Below are positions 955 through 34,770 of a stretch of 34,867 bases of DNA, in pieces. Below the pieces are notes generated by a model. The model worked only from the letters and a program-made list of their open reading frames with translations, ran no database searches and was not told the origin of the DNA. The DNA is from an uncultured Pirellulales bacterium (GTDB taxonomy: Bacteria > Planctomycetota > Planctomycetia > Pirellulales > Lacipirellulaceae): the NCBI GenBank assembly GCA_947258835.1, contig CAMYJY010000009.1, positions 1 through 34,867 on the forward strand, written 5' to 3'. A program made the translations under genes and the position numbers. Within the stretch, counting starts at the first letter, position 1, and each line of letters starts with the position of its first letter.

Positions 955-1265
955 ATGGAACCGACCTCATATCTCTGCAGACTAGCAACACAAACTATCA
1001 TATATCTCTTGGAGAAACAAGCCTTTTTGTCGCTCAAGCATCTTCGTGGCAAACCGTGTTCACCAGTCCGTAAGTGACGCACTTTGTGCTACCAACGCTT
1101 GAAGTTCCTGATGCTTGCGCAAATTCATTTGGTTCTTTGCCATAATATGTAAGTTGGAGGTGACATCATTCCGGCAAACTGGGACCTCAGCTTAGGCCCG
1201 AAAGAGCGGGCCGCCCAATCCCGTTCAACACGAAAGTCGTGGCCGAACAGCGACCGTGATTTCAT

Positions 1266-2171: not shown

Positions 2172-3332
2172 TCAAGCTTGGGATGATGAGGCCGCGCCGC
2201 GGACGGCTTCTAGATGCTCACCAAGGAATTCCACAAGCTCCTCCGCTCTCAAATCTTCAGGCGTCACAAAACGGAATTTTACTTGGTCCAGGTCGTTCCC
2301 CGCTGTGATCGCCCGCTGGGCGGCCAATTGGGCAATCCGCCCCGTGGCAAAGGCACCGCTAGGGCCGTTGAGCACCAGGTCCACCCCGGCCAGACGTTTG
2401 GTGTACACCGAGGCCCATGGCTCCCGTTGCTGGGCCACGCGGAGGTGCACCACCTGCTGATTGTTCCACAAAAACTGCGAACCATTGACGTCCGTGCCAG
2501 CCACTTCCCCTAAGTTCTCCAACAGGTCTTCCAGCACCTCGTGCGACCACTGGGGAGACTTGCCAGGCGGAAAACCCTTGCGGGCCAGATGCCAACGACG
2601 ACCCAACACCTTCCAAGGCATCAATTCTTCCGGCTTCTGCTCCACCCGCTCGGTAAACTTACGAAAACCGGCCACCGCCCGCTCTAAAAAGCTCCAAAAG
2701 GCAGGGGTGTCCAGTTCCGCCCGACTGTACGCGGCAATCTGCACTTCCTGCCAAGGGCCGCGCAAGTTTTTGCAGCGGACCCGCGGACCGTGACCATAAG
2801 CCTCGATTTCCGGTAGCTCGTTGAGGGACTTGAGACCCAAGTCGATCATCAGCTCGTCGCGCTGGAAGGTTTTCTTGGCGGTGCGGAATTTTAACTTCAC
2901 CAACCACGGCTCGCCCGTAATCGCATGGAAAAACCAGCCGTCGCTTTTCTTGAGAGCCGCAATCTCCACGATCGTCCGTGAATTCCAATTCGTGGCACTA
3001 AAATCCCCCAATTCCTGAATCCGTCGTTCAATCATGTCCAACAGCTTGCCGTCCCAATGACACGGTTGGCCTGCCCGGCTCACGCGATCACGGGTATGCC
3101 AGCCGCGACCGTCGACTTCCCATTCCGCTGGCGGTAAGGGCCCGCCGCCAAAACGGGGGCCAAGGCCAGGGCCGTATGCGAAACGGAGGACGCATTCTTC
3201 CCACCCGCCGAGCGGGCTGACTTTTTCTTTACTTCGCGCCCCCGCGCCCCCGCCACGACCTGCTCCGGCGTCCCCTGGGCCACAATCGTCCCACCACCCG
3301 CGCCCGCCTCGGGACCCAGGTCGATAATCCAA
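2172..3332 (-). CDS. C-terminal extension domain of planctomycete-type UvrA, out of frame (-1) relative to the main uvrA ORF; authentic part roughly 2172-3120
   Basis: WEVDGRGWHTRDRVSRAGQPCHWDGKLLDMIERRIQELGDFSATNWNSRTIVEIAALKKSDGWFFHAITGEPWLVKLKF... reads as a conserved domain directly after uvrA; first ~70 aa of the ORF are the shadow frame of uvrA. Confidence 0.65.
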   Translation of the reverse strand: MDYRPGSRGGRGWWDDCGPGDAGAGRGGGAGARSKEKVSPLGGWEECVLRFAYGPGLGPRFGGGPLPPAEWEVDGRGWHTRDRVSRAGQPCHWDGKLLDMIERRIQELGDFSATNWNSRTIVEIAALKKSDGWFFHAITGEPWLVKLKFRTAKKTFQRDELMIDLGLKSLNELPEIEAYGHGPRVRCKNLRGPWQEVQIAAYSRAELDTPAFWSFLERAVAGFRKFTERVEQKPEELMPWKVLGRRWHLARKGFPPGKSPQWSHEVLEDLLENLGEVAGTDVNGSQFLWNNQQVVHLRVAQQREPWASVYTKRLAGVDLVLNGPSGAFATGRIAQLAAQRAITAGNDLDQVKFRFVTPEDLRAEELVEFLGEHLEAVRGAASSSQA

Positions 3333-6300
3333 TCGGCCTGTTTGATCACATCCAAATTGTGTTCAATCACCAGCACCGTGTTGCCCAAGTCGACCAGCCG
3401 ATGCAACACATCCAAGAGTTTCACAATATCGTCAAAATGCAGACCCGTAGTCGGTTCGTCCAGGACATACAGCGTTTTGCCTGTGTCGGGGCGGGCCAGC
3501 TCGGAGGCCAGCTTGACCCGCTGGGCCTCACCACCAGAAAGCGTGGCCGCGCTCTGCCCCAAGGCCAAATAGTCCAGCCCCACATCGCACAGAGTTTGCA
3601 AGGTACGGCGGAGCTTGGGAATGTTCTGAAACAGCCGCAACGCCTCACCACACGACATTTCCAGCACATCAGCAATCGAGTGCTCTTGATAACGCACTTC
3701 CAAGGTCTCGGGATTGTAGCGATGGCCCTGGCACGTCTCGCAATCCACCCACACGTCGGGCAAGAAATGCATCTCAATGCAAATTTGCCCGGCTCCTTCA
3801 CAAGCGTCGCAGCGGCCCCCCGAAACATTAAAACTAAACCGCCGCGCGGAATAACCACGCAGTTTGGCGGCCGGTAATTGGGCAAACATCTGCCGCACCA
3901 ATTCAAACAGTCCCGTGTAGGTGGCCGGGTTGGAGGTAGGCGTATTCCCCAAAGGTCGCTGATCCACACGAATCACTTTGTCGATCTGCTCCACACCCAC
4001 AATTTTATCATGCGCCCCGGGCGATGTACCCGCCCGATGCAACATCCGAGCCAACTGGTTGTAAAGCACCTCCTGCACCAACGAACTCTTGCCGCTGCCA
4101 CTGACCCCCGTCACGGCCGTCAGCGTCCCCAACGGAATTTCCACGTCAATGTTTTTTAGGTTTTGATGACGGGCGCCAATAATTTTTAGTTGGGAGGCGC
4201 TAGGCGCTGGGCGCTGGGCGCTGGTTTTTTGCTTCTTATTCTTACGAGCGCCTCGCGCCTGGCGCCCAGCGCCCCCCTCAATCCTTCTCTGCTGCGGAAT
4301 GGAAATGGCCTTTTTGCCTGAGAGGTAGGGGCCCGTGACGCTCTTGCGTTTGCTGGCCACTTCCGCCGGCGTGCCGCGGGCTACGATTTCACCGCCGCGA
4401 CGGCCGGCGGCCGGGCCAAAGTCCAGCAGACCATCAGCACTTTCCACCACTTCGCGGTCGTGCTCCACAACCACCAGCGTGTTGCCCAAATCACGCAACT
4501 TATGCAAGGCCCCCACCAGCCGCCGGTTGTCGCGGGGATGCAGGCCGATGGTGGGTTCGTCCAGTACATACAGCACCCCACACAACCCGCTGCCCACCTG
4601 GCTGGCCAAGCGAATCCGCTGCGATTCGCCGCCCGACAGGGTCGGTGCCTGGCGACCAATCGAGAGATACTCCAGCCCCACATCGAGCAAGAAGGTAAGC
4701 CGATTGCGAATCTCGCGGATCAACTCACCCGCCACTTTTTTCTCCCGCGCGGCCAATTTCCATTTTTTGACCGTCGCCAACAACGGATCCAGTGGCCAGC
4801 GGCAGTACTCGCCAATCGTGTGTCCGGAAAACCGCACCGCCGCCGCATCATCACGCAAGCGGCTACCCCCGCACTGACTGCACTCAATCTCATCCACCAA
4901 ATGATCCAACTGGGTACGCAACCGCGGAGAAAGCCGCGAAGCCTCTTCCAATGCGGGGTACAGACCCTTGTACTGGAAGCGGAAGGAGTTGCGAGTTGCG
5001 GGCCGCGAGTTGCGAGTTTTTTTCTTCCGACTCGCGCCTCGTGACTCGTAACTCGCGCCTACTTCAATCCACTCCTGGCCCGTGCCATACAATACCGTCC
5101 GGCGGTGACGGGGTGGGAGTTGATCAAAGGGGACATCGGTAGGGAGCCCCGTGTGCGCGGAGAGGGCGTCCAGCATGGCGGCGAACAACGGCTGCTGCAC
5201 TTGGGGCCAGGCCAGCACGGCACCTTCCGCCAACGTCAGCTGCGTGCTGCGGAGCAGGGCGGCCGGGTTGGCCCCCACCTCCGTGCCCAGCCCTTCGCAG
5301 GCATCGCACCAACCGAGACTGTTGTTAAAAGAAAAATGATGGGGCGACAGGGGCTCAAAGCTCCGTCCGCAGCCGCCGCACGCCAGGTGCTGGCTGTAGA
5401 CCCGCTGCTGCCACCGGGCCTCGGGAATCCCCTCTTCCACCGCGAGCGTGTGCAATACCCCTTGGCCTAAGGCCAGGGCATTCTCGATACTTTCAGCCAA
5501 ACGGCCGCGGGCGTTGTGGCGAATCGTGACCCGATCGACCAACACCTCCAACTCGTGCTTCCGGCGGCGATCCACCGCCGGCATGTTGTCCAGTTCATGC
5601 GTCTGCTGATCAACGCGCACCCGCACGTAACCGCTGGCACGCAGAAATTCCCAATAGTCCTCGTAGGTTTTTCCCTGCGGCAACTCCACCGGGGCCAACA
5701 AATACAAACGTGTTCCCTGGGGCTCTGCCAATACCGCATCGACCACCTCGTCGGCACTCTGAGTCCCCACGGGCTCATCGCATTCCGGACAAAACATTTG
5801 TCCCATGCGGGAAAACAGGATGCGGAAGTAATCATAAATCTCCGTCACGGTTCCCACCGTGGACCGGGGTGAGTGGCCCGTGGTCCGCTGCTCGATGGCA
5901 ATCGCCGGCGAAAGTCCCTCAATCGATTCCACGCGGGGCTTTTGCAGCTGGCCAATAAACTGCCGCGCATACGAACTTAAGCTTTCGACATAACGCCGCT
6001 GGCCTTCGGCATAAATGGTGTCCATGGCCAGTGAACTCTTGCCGCTGCCACTGGGCCCACAGCATACCGTGAACTGATCGCGGGGAATCTTGGCCTGCAC
6101 ATTCCGCAGATTATGCTGCTCCGCCCCCTGCACCACGATATGCGTGGCCTGCCGCGCTGCACTCCGCCGCACAGGCGCGGTCGTCTCCGCTGGCGCGCCA
6201 CGAAGATGCGCCGCCAGAGCCCGTCCCGTATAAGAAGGCAGCGCAGTCTGATTGCCGCGGTCCGCCTCGTGCTGCAATCTTTCCCCGCCGCTGGATACCT

Positions 6301-9253
6301 CCCGGGGAGTGCTGGCAGGGGCGTTTAATGCATACTCCATCACATGCTCGGGCGTGCCCGTAGCCACCACCTCGCCACCAAACTTCCCGCCGTCGGGCCC
6401 GAGGTCAATAATCCAATCGGCCGTCTTAATCACATCCAGGTTATGTTCCACCACCAACACCGTGTTGCCCGCATCCACAAAATCGTGCAGCACTTTCAGC
6501 AGCAATTCGATGTCGGCAAAGTGCAAACCCGTGGTGGGCTCATCCAGCATGTAGAGGGTTTTACCGGTAGACTTTTTTACCAGTTCCCGAGCTAATTTGA
6601 TCCGTTGCGCCTCGCCGCCGGAAAGCGTGGGCGAGGGCTGGCCCAGTTTTAAGTAGTCCAAGCCCACATCATGCAAGGTTGCCAACTTGTGGTGAATCTT
6701 GGGGATGTTTTCAAAATGCTCCAGCGCCTGCTGCACGTCCATCTCCAGCACGTCCGAGATCGACTTGCCCTTGTACTCAACTTGCAAAGCCTCGTGATTA
6801 AAACGGTGCCCTTGGCAAACATTGCAGGTAATCCACACGTCGGCCAAAAAATCCATTTCCAACTTATTCGAGCCGTTGCCGCTACAAGCCTCGCAGCGTC
6901 CTCCGGCCACATTGAAACTAAAACGACCCGGCTTATAACCTCGCCGCTTCGACTCGGGCAGCTGCGCGTACAGACTGCGAATCTCGTCAAACACCTTGAT
7001 GTACGTGGCCGGATTGCTGCGGGGCGTGCGACCAATGGGCGACTGATCGATGGCGATCATTTTGTCGAGGTATTCCAGACCCTCCAGCGCGTCATGCGCC
7101 CCCGGCTGGCCCTTGCCTTTGTTTAAATCACGACGGAGCGATTCCACCAAAATGTCAGAAAAAATGGAGCTCTTCCCACTCCCACTGGCGCCGGTCAGGC
7201 ACACGAATCCGCCCAGCGGGATTTCGATGTCCACGTTTTTTAGATTGTTGTGGCAGGCACCCACTACCTTGAGCCGCGGAGTGCTGGGGTCAAAACCTGC
7301 GAATGGCTGTGCAGGGCTCGCGCCGACAGCCTGGATTCTTCTTGTTTCCGGCACGGCAATCTGCCGTTTCCCAGACAAATAGGCCCCCGTCACGCTCCGC
7401 TTGGCTTGACAGACCTGGGCCACACTTCCGGAAGCCACCACTTCCCCACCTCGGATGCCCGGCCCCGGCCCAAAATCGATGATGCGATCGGCAGCCCGCA
7501 TCGTATCTTCGTCATGCTCGACCACCACCACGGTGTTGCCCAGGTCGCGGAGCCGCTTGAGCGTGTCTAGCAGGCGATCGTTGTCGCGAGGATGCAAACC
7601 AATCGAGGGCTCGTCCAAAATGTACAACACGCCGACCAAACCACAACCGATTTGACCGGCCAGGCGGATCCGCTGGGTTTCGCCTCCCGAGAGCGTGGGC
7701 GCCGTGCGGTTCAGCGAGAGGTAATCCAGCCCCACATTGGTCAAAAACCCCAGCCGCCCGCGGATTTCTTTGAGCACCTCCGCAGCTATTTTTTGTCCCG
7801 TCGCATCCAGCTCCAAACCACTGAAAAATTTTTGGGCCGCCTCAATCGACAGATCACTGACGGCTGGTAAGCTCCGCGCGGGGTCGTCAGCAAATTCCGG
7901 ATGGCTGGAGACCAACGTCACCGCGCAGGCCTGAGGATTCAACCGCTCGCCCCCACAATCGGGACAGCCAATCACGTTCATGAATTTTTCTAACTTGGCC
8001 AGCAACGATTTGCTTTTGGCCCCACGATATTTTTCCAACAGCTCAGGAATCAACCCGTCAAAGGTGCCACCGTACTTTTGGGAATTCTTGCCCCCGCGCC
8101 AAGTAAAAGTGATGTGCTCATCGCCCGTACCCCACAACCAGATCTGCTGCTGGGCGGAAGTCAACTCTTCCCAGGCCGTCTCCAGCAAGGTCCCGGCAGC
8201 CAGCTCCTGCTTCCGCTCGATCGTGTCGGCTACGCCCTTATAAATGTGACGTTTCCAGCGTCCCAGATCTTTCCAGGTGCCCAGCAGTTCGATACAGCCC
8301 TGAGCCAGAGATTTTTCCGGACTCGTGATCAGCTTGGCTGGGTCAAAAGAAAACATTTGCCCCAGACCGTCGCACTCGTAGCACATGCCCTGGGGACTGT
8401 TGAAGCTAAACAGTTGCGGCGTCGGCGGTAGAAAACTTTTTCCGCAATGATTGCAGGCGTAATCGGCGCTGAACAGGATGTCGGTGGAGTGCTGGGACTT
8501 CCCCCGGGCAGCTGGAGTAGTCGCAGAAGACCCCGCGTCAGGCACTACGATGAGACTGCCATCGCCCACCTTGAGCGCGGTCTCTACGGCCTCCGCCAGT
8601 CGGCTGCGGACACTGGAGCTCAACGTCAGGCGATCCACAACCACTTCGATGTTGTGCCGCATTTGCCGATCCAAAGACAGATCGTCCGCCAGCTGCACCA
8701 CCTGGCCGTCCACGCGAGCGCGAATAAAGCCCCGCTTGAGCAGGTCTGCGGATAAATCGCGAAACTCACCCTTCTGCCCGCGGACCACCGGTGCCAATAT
8801 CAAAAACTTCGTCTTCGAAGGTTGGGACATAATCCGCGCGATGATTTGCTCGCGGGATTGGGCCGTAATCGGCCGCTGGCACTGGGGACAGTGGCCTTGC
8901 CCGACGCGGGCATACAGCACCCGTAAAAAGTCATAAATCTCGGTGATCGTCCCTACGGTCGAACGCGGATTGCTCCCTGCACTTTTCTGGGCAATCGAGA
9001 TGGATGGGCTCAGTCCACTAATATGATCCACATCCGGCTTAGGCATCTGCCCTAAAAACTGCCGGGCAAAGGTCGAGAGACTTTCTACATACCGCCGCTG
9101 GCCCTCGGCAAACAGGGTGTCAAACGCCAGGGAGCTCTTGCCACTCCCGGAAACACCCGTCAGGCAAATCAGCTCGTTCCGGGGCAAGACTAAATCGACA
9201 TCCCGGAGATTGTGTTCCCGAGCGCCTTGGATGATGATATCAGAAGCGGGCAT
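3080..9253 (-). CDS. uvrA: excinuclease ABC subunit A, tandem (double) UvrA polypeptide
   Basis: 2057 aa; two complete UvrA modules: two GVSGSGKSSLA/GPSGSGKSSLA Walker A near module starts, two further Walker A (TGASGSGKSS, TGVSGSGKSS), repeated LSGGE(T/A/S)QR signatures, CxxC zinc motifs. Confidence 0.95.
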   Translation of the reverse strand: MPASDIIIQGAREHNLRDVDLVLPRNELICLTGVSGSGKSSLAFDTLFAEGQRRYVESLSTFARQFLGQMPKPDVDHISGLSPSISIAQKSAGSNPRSTVGTITEIYDFLRVLYARVGQGHCPQCQRPITAQSREQIIARIMSQPSKTKFLILAPVVRGQKGEFRDLSADLLKRGFIRARVDGQVVQLADDLSLDRQMRHNIEVVVDRLTLSSSVRSRLAEAVETALKVGDGSLIVVPDAGSSATTPAARGKSQHSTDILFSADYACNHCGKSFLPPTPQLFSFNSPQGMCYECDGLGQMFSFDPAKLITSPEKSLAQGCIELLGTWKDLGRWKRHIYKGVADTIERKQELAAGTLLETAWEELTSAQQQIWLWGTGDEHITFTWRGGKNSQKYGGTFDGLIPELLEKYRGAKSKSLLAKLEKFMNVIGCPDCGGERLNPQACAVTLVSSHPEFADDPARSLPAVSDLSIEAAQKFFSGLELDATGQKIAAEVLKEIRGRLGFLTNVGLDYLSLNRTAPTLSGGETQRIRLAGQIGCGLVGVLYILDEPSIGLHPRDNDRLLDTLKRLRDLGNTVVVVEHDEDTMRAADRIIDFGPGPGIRGGEVVASGSVAQVCQAKRSVTGAYLSGKRQIAVPETRRIQAVGASPAQPFAGFDPSTPRLKVVGACHNNLKNVDIEIPLGGFVCLTGASGSGKSSIFSDILVESLRRDLNKGKGQPGAHDALEGLEYLDKMIAIDQSPIGRTPRSNPATYIKVFDEIRSLYAQLPESKRRGYKPGRFSFNVAGGRCEACSGNGSNKLEMDFLADVWITCNVCQGHRFNHEALQVEYKGKSISDVLEMDVQQALEHFENIPKIHHKLATLHDVGLDYLKLGQPSPTLSGGEAQRIKLARELVKKSTGKTLYMLDEPTTGLHFADIELLLKVLHDFVDAGNTVLVVEHNLDVIKTADWIIDLGPDGGKFGGEVVATGTPEHVMEYALNAPASTPREVSSGGERLQHEADRGNQTALPSYTGRALAAHLRGAPAETTAPVRRSAARQATHIVVQGAEQHNLRNVQAKIPRDQFTVCCGPSGSGKSSLAMDTIYAEGQRRYVESLSSYARQFIGQLQKPRVESIEGLSPAIAIEQRTTGHSPRSTVGTVTEIYDYFRILFSRMGQMFCPECDEPVGTQSADEVVDAVLAEPQGTRLYLLAPVELPQGKTYEDYWEFLRASGYVRVRVDQQTHELDNMPAVDRRRKHELEVLVDRVTIRHNARGRLAESIENALALGQGVLHTLAVEEGIPEARWQQRVYSQHLACGGCGRSFEPLSPHHFSFNNSLGWCDACEGLGTEVGANPAALLRSTQLTLAEGAVLAWPQVQQPLFAAMLDALSAHTGLPTDVPFDQLPPRHRRTVLYGTGQEWIEVGASYESRGASRKKKTRNSRPATRNSFRFQYKGLYPALEEASRLSPRLRTQLDHLVDEIECSQCGGSRLRDDAAAVRFSGHTIGEYCRWPLDPLLATVKKWKLAAREKKVAGELIREIRNRLTFLLDVGLEYLSIGRQAPTLSGGESQRIRLASQVGSGLCGVLYVLDEPTIGLHPRDNRRLVGALHKLRDLGNTLVVVEHDREVVESADGLLDFGPAAGRRGGEIVARGTPAEVASKRKSVTGPYLSGKKAISIPQQRRIEGGAGRQARGARKNKKQKTSAQRPAPSASQLKIIGARHQNLKNIDVEIPLGTLTAVTGVSGSGKSSLVQEVLYNQLARMLHRAGTSPGAHDKIVGVEQIDKVIRVDQRPLGNTPTSNPATYTGLFELVRQMFAQLPAAKLRGYSARRFSFNVSGGRCDACEGAGQICIEMHFLPDVWVDCETCQGHRYNPETLEVRYQEHSIADVLEMSCGEALRLFQNIPKLRRTLQTLCDVGLDYLALGQSAATLSGGEAQRVKLASELARPDTGKTLYVLDEPTTGLHFDDIVKLLDVLHRLVDLGNTVLVIEHNLDVIKQADWIIDLGPEAGAGGGTIVAQGTPEQVVAGARGREVKKKSARSAGGKNASSVSHTALALAPVLAAGPYRQRNGKSTVAAGIPVIA
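4192..4277. repeat. inverted GGCGCTGGGCGCTGG repeat inside uvrA, translated in frame as a linker
   Basis: Left arm GGCGCTAGGCGCTGGGCGCTGGGCGCTGG, T-rich centre, right arm GAGCGCCTCGCGCCTGGCGCCCAGCGCC. Confidence 0.75.
4986..5056. repeat. inverted GAGTTGCGAGTTGCG repeat inside uvrA, translated in frame
   Basis: Left arm GAGTTGCGAGTTGCGGGCCGCGAGTTGCGAG, TTTTTTTCTTCCGA centre, right arm CTCGCGCCTCGTGACTCGTAACTCGC. Confidence 0.75.
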
Positions 9254-9353
9254 GCGTCCTTGCGGGGGCAGGGTGAGAGATCAAAAATGCGCGAACCTTC
9301 CATTGTAGGCCCTCACGGCAGACCCGCCAACCAAGGCGGCAGAGCGACAATCT

Positions 9354-9393
9354 GCAGTTTCTGAAAAAACGGCCGGAGGCCGTTCTTTCAGAA
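9354..9393. repeat. GGCC-core hairpin (TTCTGAAAAAACGGCC GGA GGCCGTTCTTTCAGAA)
   Basis: 16-nt arms with one mismatch; first 31 nt identical to 26843-26873. Confidence 0.85.
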
Positions 9394-9493: not shown

Positions 9494-9532
9494 CTTCCTG
9501 AGATGGCGGCCTCCGGCCGCTATCTCAGGAAG
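9494..9532. repeat. GGCC-core hairpin (CTTCCTGAGATGGCGGCC TCC GGCCGCTATCTCAGGAAG)
   Basis: 18-nt arms with one G/T wobble; near-identical copy at 12195-12232. Confidence 0.9.
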
Positions 9533-9541
9533 TGCAAGACA

Positions 9542-12142: not shown

Positions 12143-12194
12143 ATTTACAGTAACCGCACCCAAGTCGGATTATTGATTTCTTTCTTTGACTGCG

Positions 12195-12232
12195 CTTCCT
12201 GAGATAGCGGCCTCTGGCCGCTATCTCAGGAA
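12195..12232. repeat. GGCC-core hairpin (CTTCCTGAGATAGCGGCC TCT GGCCGCTATCTCAGGAA)
   Basis: 17 bp perfect arms, 3-nt loop; matches 9494-9532. Confidence 0.92.
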
Positions 12233-12718
12233 TGAAAAAGGGAACGCTACGATTCAAAAAGATGTTATTTGATTTCTTTCGCAACCGCCGTCGCAAGCAC
12301 TGGCTCGCTCAGCCCGAGCCAAGTCCATGGGATGCATGGCTACGGTCCAACGTTTGGCAGTACTCGTATCTCACGGATCCGCAACAAGCGAAGATCCGTC
12401 AGGTGGTATGCATTTTACTGCACGAAAAAGAGTGGTTTCGAGAAGAAATGGCATCGTGTGACCAGTGCCGAGTACAAGCGCTTGCTCGGCTTCGCACGGC
12501 GTGGCGAAGAGACTTTGCTCGATCACTATGGAGCGACGAATCCAGCGGAGTTTTTCGCCGTGGCGACCGAGTGCTTTTTTACCCAACCTCATGAACTGGC
12601 AGCCGAGCATCACGAGCTGTTTGGGGTGCTCACGCGTTTGTTTGGCCAAGACCCCCGCGACTGGCTACCGAAGTCGATCAACGCGACCGGCTCCTCGGAT
12701 ACCGACGTGGTTCCGTAA
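12232..12718 (+). pseudogene. MtfA-like zinc peptidase remnant lacking the catalytic centre, with frame change
   Basis: Frame of 12232..12594 gives an MtfA-like N-terminus (FRNRRRKHWLAQPEPSPWDAWLRSNVWQYSYLTDPQQAKIRQVVCILLHEKEW); frame of 12269..12718 gives the MtfA C-terminus (AEYKRLLGFARRGEETLLDHYGATNPAEFFAVATECFFTQPHELAAEHHELFGVLTRLFGQDPRDW). No HExxH between them. Confidence 0.75.
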
Positions 12719-21725: not shown

Positions 21726-23450
21726 TTGAAAGTAATGATGAGCCGCGAGACAACATCCAAGCCAGTCAAACTGAGCCCCGTGGAAGGTTTTAAACAAGCC
21801 AGCGACTACCTGCGGGGTCCCATTGCGGAGGAACTGGCCGACGACAACGATTTCTTTGGCAAGGCCAGCATTCAGTTACTGAAGCACCACGGCACTTACC
21901 AACAAGACAATCGCGACACCCGCAAAAGCGGCAAGTCGTACAGCTTTATGGTACGTACGGCCATCCCGGGTGGCAAACTCACCAGTGCCCAGCTGCTGGC
22001 CGAGCTGGATTTATGCGACGAGCTCGGCGACAGCACCCTGCGGATTACCACCCGCCAGGGCCTCCAACTCCATGGCGTCTTAAAAAGCAACCTGCGAGAG
22101 ACCATTTGCCGCATCAACGAAACGCAGCTGACCACTCTCGCCGCCTGTGGGGATGTGGAGCGGAATGTGATGTGCTCCCCTTGCCCGTACCATGGGGATC
22201 CGGTCTACGATCAGCTGCAGACCTTGGCCGACCAACTGGCCCAACACCTACAGCCCCGCACCACGGCTTATCATGAGCTGTGGCTGACCGATCAAGAGAC
22301 GGAAAAAAAACACCTGGCCGGCGGGGGCGCGGCGGGGCACGACATCGAGCCCATCTACGGCCCCACCTATCTGCCACGCAAGTTTAAAATTGGCATTGGC
22401 TTGCCAGGAGACAACAGCGCGGACATCTATTCGCAAGACCTGGGCCTGCTGGCCGTCTGCAAAGATTGGAACGTTGTGGGCTACAACGTCCTGGTGGGTG
22501 GAGGCTTTGGGACCACCCCCAGTGCTGCCAAGACATTCCCCGCCATTGCGCAGCCCATGTGTTTTGTGAGCCCCACTCAGGCCATCGACGTGGCCACGGC
22601 AGTGATCAAGGTGCAACGCGACTTTGGCAATCGGGCCGACCGCAAGGTGGCCCGGCTCAAATACCTGATTCATAATTGGGGATTGGAACGCTTTCAGGAA
22701 AAGGTGGCGGAGTATTACGGCAGTCCCCTCGCGCCACCGCGCAGCGTGCACGTCACCGAAATCAATGACGGCATGGGTTGGCACGCCCAAGGCGATGGCC
22801 GCTGGTTCTATGGCCTGAACGTAGAAAACGGCCGCATCAAGGATGAAGGCTCCTTTCGCCTCAAAACGGCCCTGCGGGTTATCTGCTCCAAGCTGGCCCC
22901 CTCGCTCAGACTCACTCCCCACCAGGGACTCATTTTTTGTGATTTGGCGGAGGACGATCTTTCCTACCTGCAGCAGGTCTTGCGCGAGCACGGCGTGCCC
23001 CTAACCGAAGACATCTCCCCCGCCAGGCGGTGGTCCATGGCCTGCCCGGCACTCCCTACGTGCGGTTTGGCGATTACCGAAAGCGAACGGATCCTGCCGA
23101 GCATGATCGACCAGCTGGAAACGGAACTAAAACATCTCGGCCTGCAGGAAGAGATTTTTACGACCCGTATGACAGGCTGCCCCAACGGATGTGCCCGACC
23201 CTACAACGCCGACGTGGGCCTGGTGGGCAAGGCCCTCGATAAATACACCATTTTTTTAGGTGGCCGCCGGCAAGGTGACCGATTGAACTTTATCTACGCA
23301 GACAAAGTCCCTACGGCCGAGGTCGTCCCCACGCTGGTCAAGGTTTTTGAGTATTTCAAGGATGCGCGCCAAGCGGGCGAGGCGTTTGGGGATTTTTGCC
23401 AGCGTCTGGGCCTCGAGGCGTTACGCGCGCTCTGTACTACAAAAGGGTAA
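21726..23450 (+). CDS. assimilatory sulfite/nitrite reductase (siroheme, ferredoxin-type hemoprotein)
   Basis: LRITTRQGLQLHGVLKSNLRETI; GDVERNVMCSPCP; PALPTCGLAITESERILPSMID; TRMTGCPNGCARPYNADVGLVG. Confidence 0.92.
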   Translation: MKVMMSRETTSKPVKLSPVEGFKQASDYLRGPIAEELADDNDFFGKASIQLLKHHGTYQQDNRDTRKSGKSYSFMVRTAIPGGKLTSAQLLAELDLCDELGDSTLRITTRQGLQLHGVLKSNLRETICRINETQLTTLAACGDVERNVMCSPCPYHGDPVYDQLQTLADQLAQHLQPRTTAYHELWLTDQETEKKHLAGGGAAGHDIEPIYGPTYLPRKFKIGIGLPGDNSADIYSQDLGLLAVCKDWNVVGYNVLVGGGFGTTPSAAKTFPAIAQPMCFVSPTQAIDVATAVIKVQRDFGNRADRKVARLKYLIHNWGLERFQEKVAEYYGSPLAPPRSVHVTEINDGMGWHAQGDGRWFYGLNVENGRIKDEGSFRLKTALRVICSKLAPSLRLTPHQGLIFCDLAEDDLSYLQQVLREHGVPLTEDISPARRWSMACPALPTCGLAITESERILPSMIDQLETELKHLGLQEEIFTTRMTGCPNGCARPYNADVGLVGKALDKYTIFLGGRRQGDRLNFIYADKVPTAEVVPTLVKVFEYFKDARQAGEAFGDFCQRLGLEALRALCTTKG

Positions 23451-23477
23451 AAATTTTTGAATAGTGCGCAAATTTGA

Positions 23478-23620
23478 GCGACCAACGGGAGCGGACAAGC
23501 GCTTTCCGAGCGGTAGCTCGCTTTGGTTGGCGGCCCCCCGATCGAGTCGAGGGCAGGCCCCCGATCGAGTCGAGGGCAGGCCCCCGTTCAAGCCGGGGGC
23601 AGGCCCTGCCGCCTGCGCTG
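23478..23620 (-). repeat. ~100-bp dispersed repeat (intergenic copy) with internal 3 x 23-bp tandem expansion
   Basis: Matches the reverse complement of 33617-33710; 23-bp units at 23535-23557, 23558-23580, 23581-23603. Confidence 0.88.
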
Positions 23621-23728
23621 CCAACGATGAAAGTCCTTGACGCCTATCCAGCAACACCGGAAGATGTGGGGCATCCACGGATTGGTCCACAACATTCTCC
23701 TGAGCCTTTGACTCCCACAGGTATTCCC

Positions 23729-24393: not shown

Positions 24394-24642
24394 GATGTTA
24401 GATGTTAGATGTGAGATATTTGATGTAAGGGTGCCACTGCTGGCTTGTCCAGCAGTGGATACTTGGTACCCACTTCCCGGGTCGAGCCCCAACGGGGCGA
24501 TCCTATGTCAGCCCAGGCCAACGGCCTGGGTAACTTGGTACCCGATCAACACACCCCAAAAAGCAACAGAGGTGGGGCTGCGCCCCAGCCTACATCTACA
24601 TCAAATATCTCACATCTCACATCTAACATCCCTTCTAACATC
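24394..24642. repeat. repeat mosaic filling a convergent intergenic region, bounded by inverted GATGTGA heptamer arrays
   Basis: 24394-24428 GATGTTA GATGTTA GATGTGA GATATTT GATGTAA; inverted counterpart 24591-24642; 43-bp palindrome 24429-24471; GGTGGGGCTGCGCCCCAGCCTAC 24570-24592. Confidence 0.9.
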
Positions 24643-26842: not shown

Positions 26843-26880
26843 GCAGTTTCTGAAAAAACGGCCGGAGGCCGTTTTTTATG
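26843..26880. terminator. hairpin AAAAAACGGCCGGAGGCCGTTTTTT just downstream of 26824 stop, probable rho-independent terminator
   Basis: GC stem plus T6 tract 3' of CDS; shares 31 nt with 9354-9384. Confidence 0.8.
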
Positions 26881-29942: not shown

Positions 29943-30004
29943 GATGTGAGATGTGAGATGTGAGATGTGAGATGTGAGATGTGAGATGTGAGATATTTGA
30001 TGTA
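29943..30004 (+). repeat. heptamer tandem array (GATGTGA)x7 + GATATTT + GATGTA
   Basis: Direct count: 7 perfect units 29943-29991, then GATATTTGATGTA. Confidence 0.97.
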
Positions 30005-30005
30005 G

Positions 30006-30158
30006 GGTGCCACTGCTGGCTCGTCCCAATCCCGTTTGGCACGAAAGTTATTGGCAAGTAACAGATAATTTTGAACCACGACGAAACGACGGAAACAACG
30101 AATCAACAGAGGAGAAAGGCAAGTCTCCCTTCGTCGTCGCGTCGTTTCGTTGTGGTTC
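30006..30158 (+). repeat. composite dispersed element: GGGTGCCACTGCTGGC/CCCAATCCCGTTTGGCACGAAAGTT module plus GAACCACGACGAAAC MITE-like unit (30073-30158)
   Basis: First module matches the reverse complement of 20474-20535; MITE-like unit has ~19-nt terminal inverted repeats and relatives at 20445-20473 and 34417-34510. Confidence 0.85.
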
Positions 30159-30325: not shown

Positions 30326-30383
30326 CGTAGGCTGGGGCGAAGCCCCACCTTTTCTATGTGTGATGTGAGATATTTGATGTGAG
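30326..30383. repeat. inverted GTAGGCTGGGGCGAAGCCCCACCT repeat plus short heptamer relic TGATGTGAGATATTTGATGTGAGG
   Basis: Compare 24570-24592/24394-24428 and 29943-30004. Confidence 0.85.
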
Positions 30384-30548
30384 GTGCGACCCCATGAGTG
30401 GACTGGGAGCAGCCCAGGAGGTAATCTGCTTGGGAACCCATAAACCTCCTGTGCTGCGCACAACGACACATGTCCGACTATGTGTTGCTCGGTAGTTATG
30501 CTCATTGCGGACAAGTTTCGGTGCCACCCTCAAGTCGGGCCCTACCTT

Positions 30549-33500
30549 ATGCAGGATAAAAAAAGGCTCTCATCTGTGGCGGCGCAGGTAGCTGAGTTGC
30601 TGGCCGATTTTCAGATGGACGACGACTCGGCCCCAACAGTCCAGCAAGCCGTGCACCTGGCTCGCCAGCTACAAATTCGTGCCAACGCACTGCAAACGAC
30701 CGCCGAGCGCCGCCAACAGGCCGAATTGGATCGCATGATCCAATCACCGCACGACAAGGCCACCCTGCTGCAGCTGACCGATCAGGCCTTTCGTGCGCGG
30801 CTACCCCACCGCGCGGCGGATCAGCTGATTCATATCCTCGATGTGCAGGGCATCCCACGGTTTTTCAGCGCCCTGGACCGCACACTCCTCAAAGGCTTTC
30901 AGTCCTTTGGGAGCTATCTGCCCAGCGTGGCCATGCCCTTTGTCCAAGAGAAAATGCGCCAGGAAACGGCCAACGTCGTGCTACCCGCGGAACCCGAGTT
31001 CCTTAGCAACCACCTCCGCCAACGCCACGCCTCCGGCGTGCGGATGAATGTCAACTACCTGGGCGAAGCCCTCTTGGGCGAGCGGGATGCCGAACGAAGA
31101 CTGCAGCGCTACGTGCAGGCCTTGCAGTGCCCGGACATCGAAGTGATTTCCGTAAAAATTTCCACGATCTACTCGCAGATTTCAGCGCTATCTCGTGAAC
31201 ACTCCATCGACGTGCTCTGCGACCGGATGGAACGGCTCTACCGGGCCGCAGCCCAAGAGCGGTTTCGACAAGTCGATGGCTCGGAGGTAGCCAAATTTGT
31301 GTACCTCGATATGGAAGAATATCGCGACAAAGAAATCACGGCCGAGGTCTTTATTCGCACGTTATCGCGACCGGGGCTGGAGCAAGTCCGCGGCGGCATT
31401 GTGTTGCAGGCCTACATCCCCGATTCCTGGGCGACCCAACAGCGGATCACACATTGGGCCCGCCAACGGCTGGCCGCCGGGGGAGCGCCCATCACACTCC
31501 GCATCGTCAAAGGGGCAAATTTGGAAATGGAGCGGGTGGAGGCCAGCCTGCGGGGCTGGCCCCAGGCCCCGTACCAAGAAAAAAGACAGACCGATGCCAA
31601 CTACAACCGCATGCTGGCCTGGGGGATGCAACCGGAAAACTTATCCGCGGTGCGACTGGGAATCGCCTCCCACAACCTTTTTACCTTGGCGTACGGTCTG
31701 GTACTGGCCTACCACGCCGACGCCTGGCCCCAAGTGCAATTTGAAATGCTGGAAGGCATGGCCAACCATCAACGGCGGGCTCTGTTTGAATTCACCCACA
31801 ACCTGCTGCTCTACGCCCCCGCCTGCCGACAAGCAGAGTTTGTAAGCGCCATCGGCTACCTCATTCGGCGACTCGATGAAAACACGGGGCCCGAAAATTT
31901 CCTCCGCCACGCCTTCCGCTTAGAAGTAGACTCCCCGGACTGGCAAGCATTGGAAGACGCTTTTGTCGCATCATTCGAACACCTAGAGACAATCCGTTCC
32001 GCACCCCGCAGAACACAAAATCGCCAGCGGCAGTCCGACGATGGAGATCAAAATCCAGAGACATCAACTCCGCCAACCGCGGCGGTCGGGCACGGTCCAG
32101 CGCACTCGGCCCCCAACCTAGGATTCACCAACGAACCGGACACCGATTGGTCGTTGCCCCACCACAGCCAGTGGGCCGAGGACATTGTAGCGCGCTGGAA
32201 ATCGCGTCATGGCCCCCGCGCCGAGACCGTCCCCCTGGTGGTGGCCGGCGAAGAGATTGCCACCGGTCGCGAGCTGTGCGAATCGATCGATCCCTCGCGG
32301 CCGGAAACGGTAGTCGGCAGATATTTTCAGGCCCGCGCAGCGGATGTGGCCACAGCCGTCACAGCGGCCACAGCCGACCCCGACGCCTGGCGACGCCGCC
32401 CGGCACAAGAACGTTGTGACATCCTGCAAGCGGTGACGCAGCGGCTCGCTGCCCAGCGGGCCGAGCTGCTGGGCGTCATGTTGGCGGAAGGAGGAAAAAC
32501 ACTCTCCGAATCCGACCCCGAAGTCTCCGAGGCAATCGACTTTTGCCGTTTTTATGCCCAGTCGGCCGGCTACTTCCATGAGTTAGCAGGCCTGGCACCA
32601 TGTGGCTCGGGAGTGGTGGTGGTCGTTTCGCCGTGGAATTTTCCGCTGGCGATCCCCTGTGGCGGGATTGCGGCGGCCTTGGCGGCAGGGAACACGGTAA
32701 TTCTCAAACCGGCTTCCGACACGGTTCTGATTGCGTACCACTTATGCCAGTGTTTTTGGCAGGCGGGGGTGCCACGTACGGCCTTGCAGTTTTTACCTTG
32801 CCCGGGCGCCACCGTTGGCAGCCACTTGGTCACCCACCCGGGCGTGGCCAGGGTGCTGCTGACCGGCGGCACCGAGACGGCCCTGCACATGCTGCGGGCC
32901 AAACCCTCTCTGCAGCTGCTGGCCGAAACGGGTGGCAAAAATGCCACCATCGTCACGGCCTTGGCCGATCGGGAACAGGCCATCAAAAACGTGCTGCATT
33001 CGGCCTTCAGTCACAGTGGTCAAAAATGTTCTGCCACATCCCTGTTAATTTTGGAAGAGGAAGTCTATCACGACGCCCAGTTTCGGGAGGCGCTGTGCGA
33101 TGCCTTGGAAAGCCTGGCGGTGGGTTCTGCGTGGCAGCTCCAGACCAAAGTCGGCCCACTGATCCGCCCGCCGACGGGCGTGTTGGAGCGAAGTCTCACG
33201 AAGCTCGAACCGGAAGAATCCTGGGCGGTTCGGCCCCAACTGCGCGTCCACGACAATCCCCATAGTGTCAGCCCAGGCCTCAAATGGGATGTGCAGCCAC
33301 AGAGCTTCACCCACCTCACCGAGTTTTTCGGGCCGCTGTTGGCAGTGCTACCCGCCCGTGATTTGCACGCAGCGATCGACTTGGTCAACGCCACCGGCTA
33401 TGGCCTCACCGCGGGCCTGGAGAGCCTGGACGATCGCGAGCAACAGCTGTGGCAAGAAGGCGTTCGCGCTGGCAATCTCTACATCAATCGCCCCACCACG

Positions 33501-34364
33501 GGTGCGATCGTACTCCGCCAACCGTTTGGCGGACTGGGAAAAAGTGCCGTCGGCCCCGGCCTGAAGGCGGGCGGGCCCAACTACGTGGTGCCCTTGATGC
33601 ATTTCCAAGCGACAGGGCGGCAGTGCCTGCCCCCGGCTCGAACGGGGGGCCGCCAGCCATCGCGAGCTACCGCTCGGAAAACAATGGCCCGCTCCCGTTG
33701 GTCGCTGGAATCCCTTCAAATATCAGAGAGTCCCACCATGAGCCAGATAGAACTCGACGACTTTTATGCTGCCCTCCGGGCGAGCACCCTCGACCCGGCC
33801 GCGGTAGCACAAATTGTCTCCGCCGCGGAAAGTTACCTAGCCTGGATGGCCACCGAGTTTGGCCCCACCCACGACGAGTTTCGGCTGCTGGGGGAGGACA
33901 ACTACCGCCGTTATCGGCCGCTCACAACGGTTCATATTCGTTTGCATTCGGCGGATACACCCTGGGAACTATTTGCCCGAGCGTTGGCGGCCCGCGTGGC
34001 CGGCTGCCGCATCGTGATCAGCTCACCACCCTTGCTGGAAAGCAGCTTCGTCCAACTGCTGGATCAGCTGACCCACGGCTGGGCCGGACAAATTGAATTC
34101 GTCCCGCAATCCGACACCGAGCTGGCCGACGCCATCCGCGCATCTCACATCCACCGCCTGCGCTATGCCGCTCCCGATCGTGTTCCGCTGGCCATTCGCC
34201 AAGCGGCCGCCGAGACAGGCCACTACCTCGCCGATGCCCCCGTATTGGCGCATGGCCGAATTGAACTGTTGTGGTATTTCCAAGAACAAAGCCTGTCTCA
34301 GATCTACCACCGTTATGGCAACCTGGGGCCGCGCGCGGCGGAAGTACGACACCAGCCCGCATAA
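30549..34364 (+). CDS. putA: bifunctional proline dehydrogenase / L-glutamate gamma-semialdehyde dehydrogenase with C-terminal extension
   Basis: PRODH motifs (NYLGEALLGERDAERRL, RIVKGANLEMERVEASLRGWPQAPYQEKRQTDANYNRML), ALDH motifs (VVVVSPWNFPLAIPCGG, LAETGGKNATIV, HSGQKCSATS), QPFGGLGKSAVGPGLKAGGPNYV; ORF track start 30480. Confidence 0.93.
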   Translation: MQDKKRLSSVAAQVAELLADFQMDDDSAPTVQQAVHLARQLQIRANALQTTAERRQQAELDRMIQSPHDKATLLQLTDQAFRARLPHRAADQLIHILDVQGIPRFFSALDRTLLKGFQSFGSYLPSVAMPFVQEKMRQETANVVLPAEPEFLSNHLRQRHASGVRMNVNYLGEALLGERDAERRLQRYVQALQCPDIEVISVKISTIYSQISALSREHSIDVLCDRMERLYRAAAQERFRQVDGSEVAKFVYLDMEEYRDKEITAEVFIRTLSRPGLEQVRGGIVLQAYIPDSWATQQRITHWARQRLAAGGAPITLRIVKGANLEMERVEASLRGWPQAPYQEKRQTDANYNRMLAWGMQPENLSAVRLGIASHNLFTLAYGLVLAYHADAWPQVQFEMLEGMANHQRRALFEFTHNLLLYAPACRQAEFVSAIGYLIRRLDENTGPENFLRHAFRLEVDSPDWQALEDAFVASFEHLETIRSAPRRTQNRQRQSDDGDQNPETSTPPTAAVGHGPAHSAPNLGFTNEPDTDWSLPHHSQWAEDIVARWKSRHGPRAETVPLVVAGEEIATGRELCESIDPSRPETVVGRYFQARAADVATAVTAATADPDAWRRRPAQERCDILQAVTQRLAAQRAELLGVMLAEGGKTLSESDPEVSEAIDFCRFYAQSAGYFHELAGLAPCGSGVVVVVSPWNFPLAIPCGGIAAALAAGNTVILKPASDTVLIAYHLCQCFWQAGVPRTALQFLPCPGATVGSHLVTHPGVARVLLTGGTETALHMLRAKPSLQLLAETGGKNATIVTALADREQAIKNVLHSAFSHSGQKCSATSLLILEEEVYHDAQFREALCDALESLAVGSAWQLQTKVGPLIRPPTGVLERSLTKLEPEESWAVRPQLRVHDNPHSVSPGLKWDVQPQSFTHLTEFFGPLLAVLPARDLHAAIDLVNATGYGLTAGLESLDDREQQLWQEGVRAGNLYINRPTTGAIVLRQPFGGLGKSAVGPGLKAGGPNYVVPLMHFQATGRQCLPPARTGGRQPSRATARKTMARSRWSLESLQISESPTMSQIELDDFYAALRASTLDPAAVAQIVSAAESYLAWMATEFGPTHDEFRLLGEDNYRRYRPLTTVHIRLHSADTPWELFARALAARVAGCRIVISSPPLLESSFVQLLDQLTHGWAGQIEFVPQSDTELADAIRASHIHRLRYAAPDRVPLAIRQAAAETGHYLADAPVLAHGRIELLWYFQEQSLSQIYHRYGNLGPRAAEVRHQPA
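33617..33710 (+). repeat. dispersed repeat copy lying in frame inside the putA ORF
   Basis: Reverse complement matches 23478-23620: AGCGACCAACGGGAGCGG...TTTCCGAGCGGTAGCTCGC..TGG.TGGCGGCCCCCCG..TTC.AGCCGGGGGCAGGC.CTGCCGCC. Confidence 0.88.
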
Positions 34365-34552: not shown

Positions 34553-34749
34553 CGTCATTCCCGCGCAGTTCCGTCATTCCCGCGCAGTTCCGTCATTCCC
34601 GCGCAGGCGGGAATCTAGGCAACGTGCGTTCCAATCATTCCCGCCGGAATCCAGACGGTTCGCGCACCATACAGGTTCCTGGATTCCCGCCTGCGCGGGA
34701 ATGACGTGTCGAGGCTTCCTGGATTCCCCCTTTCGCGGGAATGACGTGG
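34553..34749. repeat. cluster of GTCATTCCCGCG/CGCGGGAATGAC repeats (dRS3-like ATTCCC...GGGAAT)
   Basis: CGTCATTCCCGCGCAGTTC at 34553-34571 and 34572-34590, third unit at 34591; half-copy at 34636; opposite-orientation copies 34677-34708 and 34717-34749. Confidence 0.92.
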
Positions 34750-34770
34750 GGGGGCCAGGACACAGAGTTT

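Follow-up and report, generated by a model that had tools for sequence, protein, structure and literature searches.

An in-frame repeat copy within putA

The window, by which we mean the whole stretch of 34,867 nucleotides that was analysed, carries a putA gene (30480..34364, forward strand) encoding a 1294-aa protein with a proline dehydrogenase domain (Pro_dh, residues 178-477), an ALDH domain (Aldedh, residues 600-1034) and a C-terminal domain. After the Aldedh match, which stops at residue 1034, and before the C-terminal domain lies, in frame and on the forward strand, a full-length copy of a repeat of about 135 bp (33612..33751; residues ~1045-1091). Three modules can be distinguished in it. 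Module A (33612..33654), defined from module counts, is a GGCGGC hairpin with a C-rich insert (CCCCCGGCTCGAACGGGGG); module B (33647..33705), the most widespread of the three, runs from a GCGAGCTACCGCTCG hairpin to CCGTTGGTCGC; and module C (33706..33751), an A/T-rich segment placed by the profile alignment to 33751, is degenerate in putA and holds the in-frame ATG 33738. No stop codon interrupts the putA frame across the element, and the whole ORF is open. As had been predicted, the copy encodes a basic linker, which in the window PutA is 49 residues long, begins just past the Aldedh match and is derived nearly entirely from the element.

The original prediction also held that this segment matches an intergenic repeat of opposite orientation in the same window. 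Such a match was found between 23472-23558 and 33625-33711 (87 nt, 85% complementary), with a further arm between 23575-23613 and 33616-33654 (39 nt, 90%). It stands far above background: a 125-bp putA query returned 49 places in its own genome (48 non-self), and in the best non-self match 96 nt align at 95% identity (E 1e-36). A profile from which the putA copy had been left out still recovered that copy at 33612-33751 (E 1e-31, model positions 3-145 of 153), so that the predicted limits of 33617-33710 were slightly short and ATG 33738 falls inside the element. The intergenic partner is likewise present with a corrected extent: instead of 23478-23620, it consists of a reverse-strand copy with modules B, C and part of A at 23428..23559 (profile match 23559-23428, E 2e-37), followed in tandem on the same strand by partial units at 23575..23647 (module A and a module C remnant at 23613-23647), which were identified from the arm match, the genome search and the profile. 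A solitary module C remnant lies at 1080..1125 on the reverse strand (E 7.5e-5, profile), and an Rfam search of the window yielded zero matches.

In eight congeneric PutA proteins that cover the junction, and in others of the family, the fusion is unbroken and the linker short, variable and free of the repeat. The orthologues from the genus are uninterrupted and about 1230-1290 aa long, and their hydrophilic linkers sit between a ...PNYVxxLMxF and an LDDF motif. Among named genomes, the nearest PutA relatives are those of Bythopirellula and other planctomycetes. In an AlphaFold model of the ALDH and C-terminal parts, low confidence at fragment residues 456-499 coincides with the element (457-503), which gives mild support to the view that the insert may be flexible; the support is only mild because the model as a whole is poor (mean pLDDT 58.9, 12 sequences), with part of the ALDH domain low too. 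A PDB fold search retrieved PutA structures and nothing bearing on the insert.

Modular structure and abundance of the element

The family was characterized in 1.43 Mb of sequence (88 contigs) from a draft Lacipirellulaceae (Bythopirellula-like) MAG of 2.75 Mb (327 contigs, 84% complete). Alignment of the copies gave about 135 bp for the complete unit (CAGGGCGGCAG...GTAGTACAG), and tandem copies repeat with a period of 135 bp. Profile searching (E<1e-4) of the 1.43 Mb returned 171 hits at 153 loci, of which about 10% were intragenic and in frame, confirming that the segment belongs to a high-copy repeat. Modules occurred most often as B alone (73), A-B (53) or A alone (43), with A-B-C in 6 cases and other arrangements besides; module A was found both singly and in tandem. 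Module B gave 157 matches in the 1.43 Mb, and a 17-mer module-B tag was found 169 times in the full genome, as compared to 0 for the reversed control.

The ends of the unit (CAGGGCGGC... and ...AGTACAG) are not complementary, and we found neither terminal inverted repeats nor a long end-to-end stem, the folds yielding internal hairpins alone. Single-strand RNA folding energies were not clearly better than those of shuffled sequences (z -0.05 to -1.5). The freedom of the element from stops does not exceed that expected from composition; the consensus in the putA frame contains a TGA where putA has CGA (TGA in 38 and CGA in 12 of the copies read).

Other genes carrying in-frame copies

Unrelated conserved genes elsewhere in the genome contain the element as well. 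The clearest case is NadB, which is exactly 45 residues (135 bp) longer than 11 congeneric orthologues sharing one linker length, and alignment with solved L-aspartate oxidases leaves the same gap opposite the insert; a CAG common to both ends of this insert could belong to the element or to the target. The dGTPase contains two tandem diverged units (~88 extra residues) at a position where 12 congeneric dGTPases are contiguous (subject gap from a few-nt overlap to about 30 nt). BirA has about 30 extra residues, and in MnmE the insert lies inside the G domain, past the VLDATQ motif and ahead of NKLD. Shorter or partial in-frame copies are present in LpxB, an RND permease, an anti-sigma-like protein and a PHP-type protein, and a 33-bp partial match points to a possible in-frame copy in ThiH (C11). 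NCBIfam identifies the hosts, and its match is interrupted at the insert in NadB, BirA, the dGTPase and the RND pump. Loci C58, C44, C79 and C65 are putative further intragenic candidates, as are C12, C30, C52 and C62 at N-terminal positions. The encoded peptide is GRQ..PPARTGGRQP in both PutA and BirA, QAAEPA..GGPPT in NadB and different again in MnmE.

A candidate copy in the linker between the two halves of CarB (C55) was left outside the clean count because an unrelated lesion breaks the frame upstream of the insert. Within this gene (L127, G000:C55, ~900-2565) the frame of the N-terminal half differs from that of the rest, and residues are apparently missing after WFLDNL; the lesion may be real or may stem from misassembly. 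Directly after the element, the CarB linker (L127:2818-2930) holds another, distinct in-frame repeat composed of TAGCCCC units.

Frame and position of intragenic copies

Intragenic loci made up only 16 of the 153, whereas 79% of the sequence is coding according to a codon-usage gene caller (1.43 Mb), a strong depletion. Thirteen copies have coding sequence directly abutting them on both sides and could be assessed for frame, 11 being in frame and two shifted. The shifted pair was rejected as intragenic, as these copies sit at real gene boundaries, rplM|rpsI and aceE|aceF (names read from the flanking translations), and are therefore intergenic. One of the 11 (C65) may lie in a spurious antisense ORF. 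By simple arithmetic, ten of ten copies in frame, at a chance of one-third each, has a probability of about 2e-5. The frame used varies among genes, and no single peptide is therefore under selection; the in-frame pattern needs no more than selection against broken genes.

Distribution among relatives and candidate movers

Module B was found in two of 13 congeners; in one of them, G008, a full-length homologue is present and its ends are similar. Outside the family, the planctomycete G323 has 46 copies of the module-B tag, mostly with different flanking modules, a possible case of horizontal spread (L270, L274-L303). This patchy distribution suggests repeated loss or horizontal entry. Hairpin 1 has undergone paired changes between these lineages (GCGGC/GCCGC, GAGGC/GCCTC and GCAGC/GCTGC). 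The covariation involves two pairs and six cells, a cell count that none of 500 shuffles reached, and could stem from just two events.

Four matches to Y1_Tnp (RAYT-like) were detected, and three of these genes (L194, L195 and L196) are bounded by other inverted sequences of their own (GGTGTCAGGAACC, GGGGTCAGAACTA and GGGGACATT..). The fetched Y1_Tnp flanks contained no copy of the element except a weak partial remnant ~1.4 kb from one gene, and a RAYT was accordingly rejected as the mover. None of these Y1_Tnp transposases carries the ends of the element, and no autonomous partner was found in the sequence read, which is about half of the draft MAG.

Relationship to known intragenic repeats

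The original prediction likened the element to the Rickettsia palindromic elements (RPEs) while placing it in a different lineage. The resemblance holds for behavior but not for membership, and the lineage is indeed a different one, a planctomycete. RPEs are repeats of ~100-150 bp found in frame inside unrelated conserved genes, with 19 such genes in R. conorii (PMC2229807, PMC10969869). The present element is likewise dispersed, multi-copy and in frame inside unrelated conserved genes. However, RPEs are specific to Rickettsia, and in the element described here, which is modular (A/B/C, with B alone commonest), no terminal inverted repeat was found; it is set apart from RPEs by description, not by sequence comparison.

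REPs tagged with GTAG or CGTC encode 20-80 aa inside conserved enzymes of Opitutus terrae, Thauera, Thioalkalivibrio and R. conorii (PMC3733652). They share with the element a palindromic and dispersed character, and O. terrae belongs to the neighboring Verrucomicrobia (PMC3733652). Their units, however, are 20-40 bp long and end in a GTAG or CGTC tag, in contrast to ~135 bp here, where the sole GTAG lies on the reverse strand in the loop of hairpin 2. Unlike REPs and REPINs, moreover, the element flanks none of the RAYT (Y1_Tnp) genes detected. Enterobacterial ERIC (RU-1) and the 107-bp Correia element are MITE-like repeats of 107-127 bp that are fused in frame to ORFs (PMC2229807), but their terminal inverted repeats, target-site duplications and TA termini have no established counterpart here. 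Although the element behaves like RPE, ERIC, Correia and REP sequences, it conforms to none of the structures that define them, and therefore constitutes a new family that illustrates a known phenomenon, the in-frame insertion of small repeats. Insertions of this kind in Planctomycetota were not encountered in a non-exhaustive literature search.

Origin of the PutA insert and alternative explanations

These findings make it highly probable that a non-autonomous repeat was inserted in frame into the PutA linker, that PutA is still one polypeptide, and that the same happened independently in other genes. Under this explanation, a hairpin-rich, dispersed family of ~135-bp repeats would have multiplied in the planctomycete, by transposition or a related copying process, and one copy would have landed in the flexible linker that joins the ALDH domain to the C-terminal one. 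Since the length of the unit is divisible by three (45 codons) and the putA copy is free of stops, PutA would remain a single polypeptide that gained a basic, probably unstructured linker. Equivalent insertions would have arisen independently in NadB, the dGTPase (two tandem units), BirA, MnmE, LpxB, the RND pump and others. Purifying selection presumably purges frame-breaking insertions and spares those that preserve the frame in linkers and loops, and the insert is probably tolerated rather than useful.

It had been suggested alternatively that the insert separated the domains: translation of the ALDH part would stop in or near the element, and ATG 33738 would start a distinct C-terminal product. 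This ATG is in frame and is preceded by a weak purine-rich AGAGAG. Nevertheless, neither a stop nor a frameshift lies between the two parts, relatives covering the junction retain the fusion, and the ATG is within the degenerate module C, and is not an ancestral start; re-initiation is thus improbable. The linker could also be an ordinary basic linker of a GC-rich gene that has come to look repeat-like by composition, and the variability of the linker at this site among PutA orthologues would fit such convergence. This explanation is refuted at the nucleotide level, by a match to another copy (96 nt, 95% identity) and by the 140-nt profile match at E 1e-31. Reading of the element in different frames in NadB and MnmE also speaks against selection for a single peptide.

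A further proposal is that the inserts are adaptive, the peptide or the RNA or DNA structure of the element working for the host genes, for example in translational pausing or protein interaction. The compensatory changes in hairpin 1 between lineages (2 pairs, 6 cells) are in its favor, and nucleic-acid structure may consequently be kept in the element as such. On the other hand, the peptide varies with the frame (PutA and BirA as opposed to NadB and MnmE), the hosts are unrelated and genes are depleted of copies, and we regard an adaptive role as unlikely. A more far-reaching reading would be that a planctomycete-specific modular palindromic family, with putative mobilization machinery of its own, keeps making in-frame linker insertions in core enzymes. 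We consider this reading possible, and put it forward tentatively. If true, it would provide an independent natural system of protein growth by repeat insertion, in which pre- and post-insertion orthologues could be compared at residue resolution.

In-frame "protein-coding palindromes" have usually been a Rickettsia story; the same outcome is seen here in a planctomycete and with an apparently unrelated element. Several hosts (NadB, BirA, dGTPase, MnmE and PutA) have solved homologues, and the 45-residue gain of NadB relative to its 11 congeners offers clean before-and-after pairs with which the neutrality of an insert can be tested.

Other repeats and ORFs in the window

The window also contains palindromic repeats with three arms at 34591-34755 (CGTCATTCCCGCGCAGGCGGGAATCTAGG), which we take to resemble the ATTCCC..GGGAAT units (dRS3) of Neisseria. 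A second palindromic family (CTGAGATxGCGGCCTCCGGCCGCTATCTCAG, TTTCTGAAAAAACGGCCGGAGGCCGTT) is found at 9353-9391, 9494-9536, 12191-12248 and 26843-26877, and its members are possibly terminators. Arrays of a GATGTGA heptamer occupy 24394-24430, 24596-24630, 29943-30007 and 30348-30384 and adjoin a common AGGGTGCCACTGCTGGCT segment. Finally, an ORF of 2057 aa on the reverse strand (3080-9253), possibly a double-length UvrA, contains an internal duplication of 137 nt at 71% (positions 5913 and 9012).
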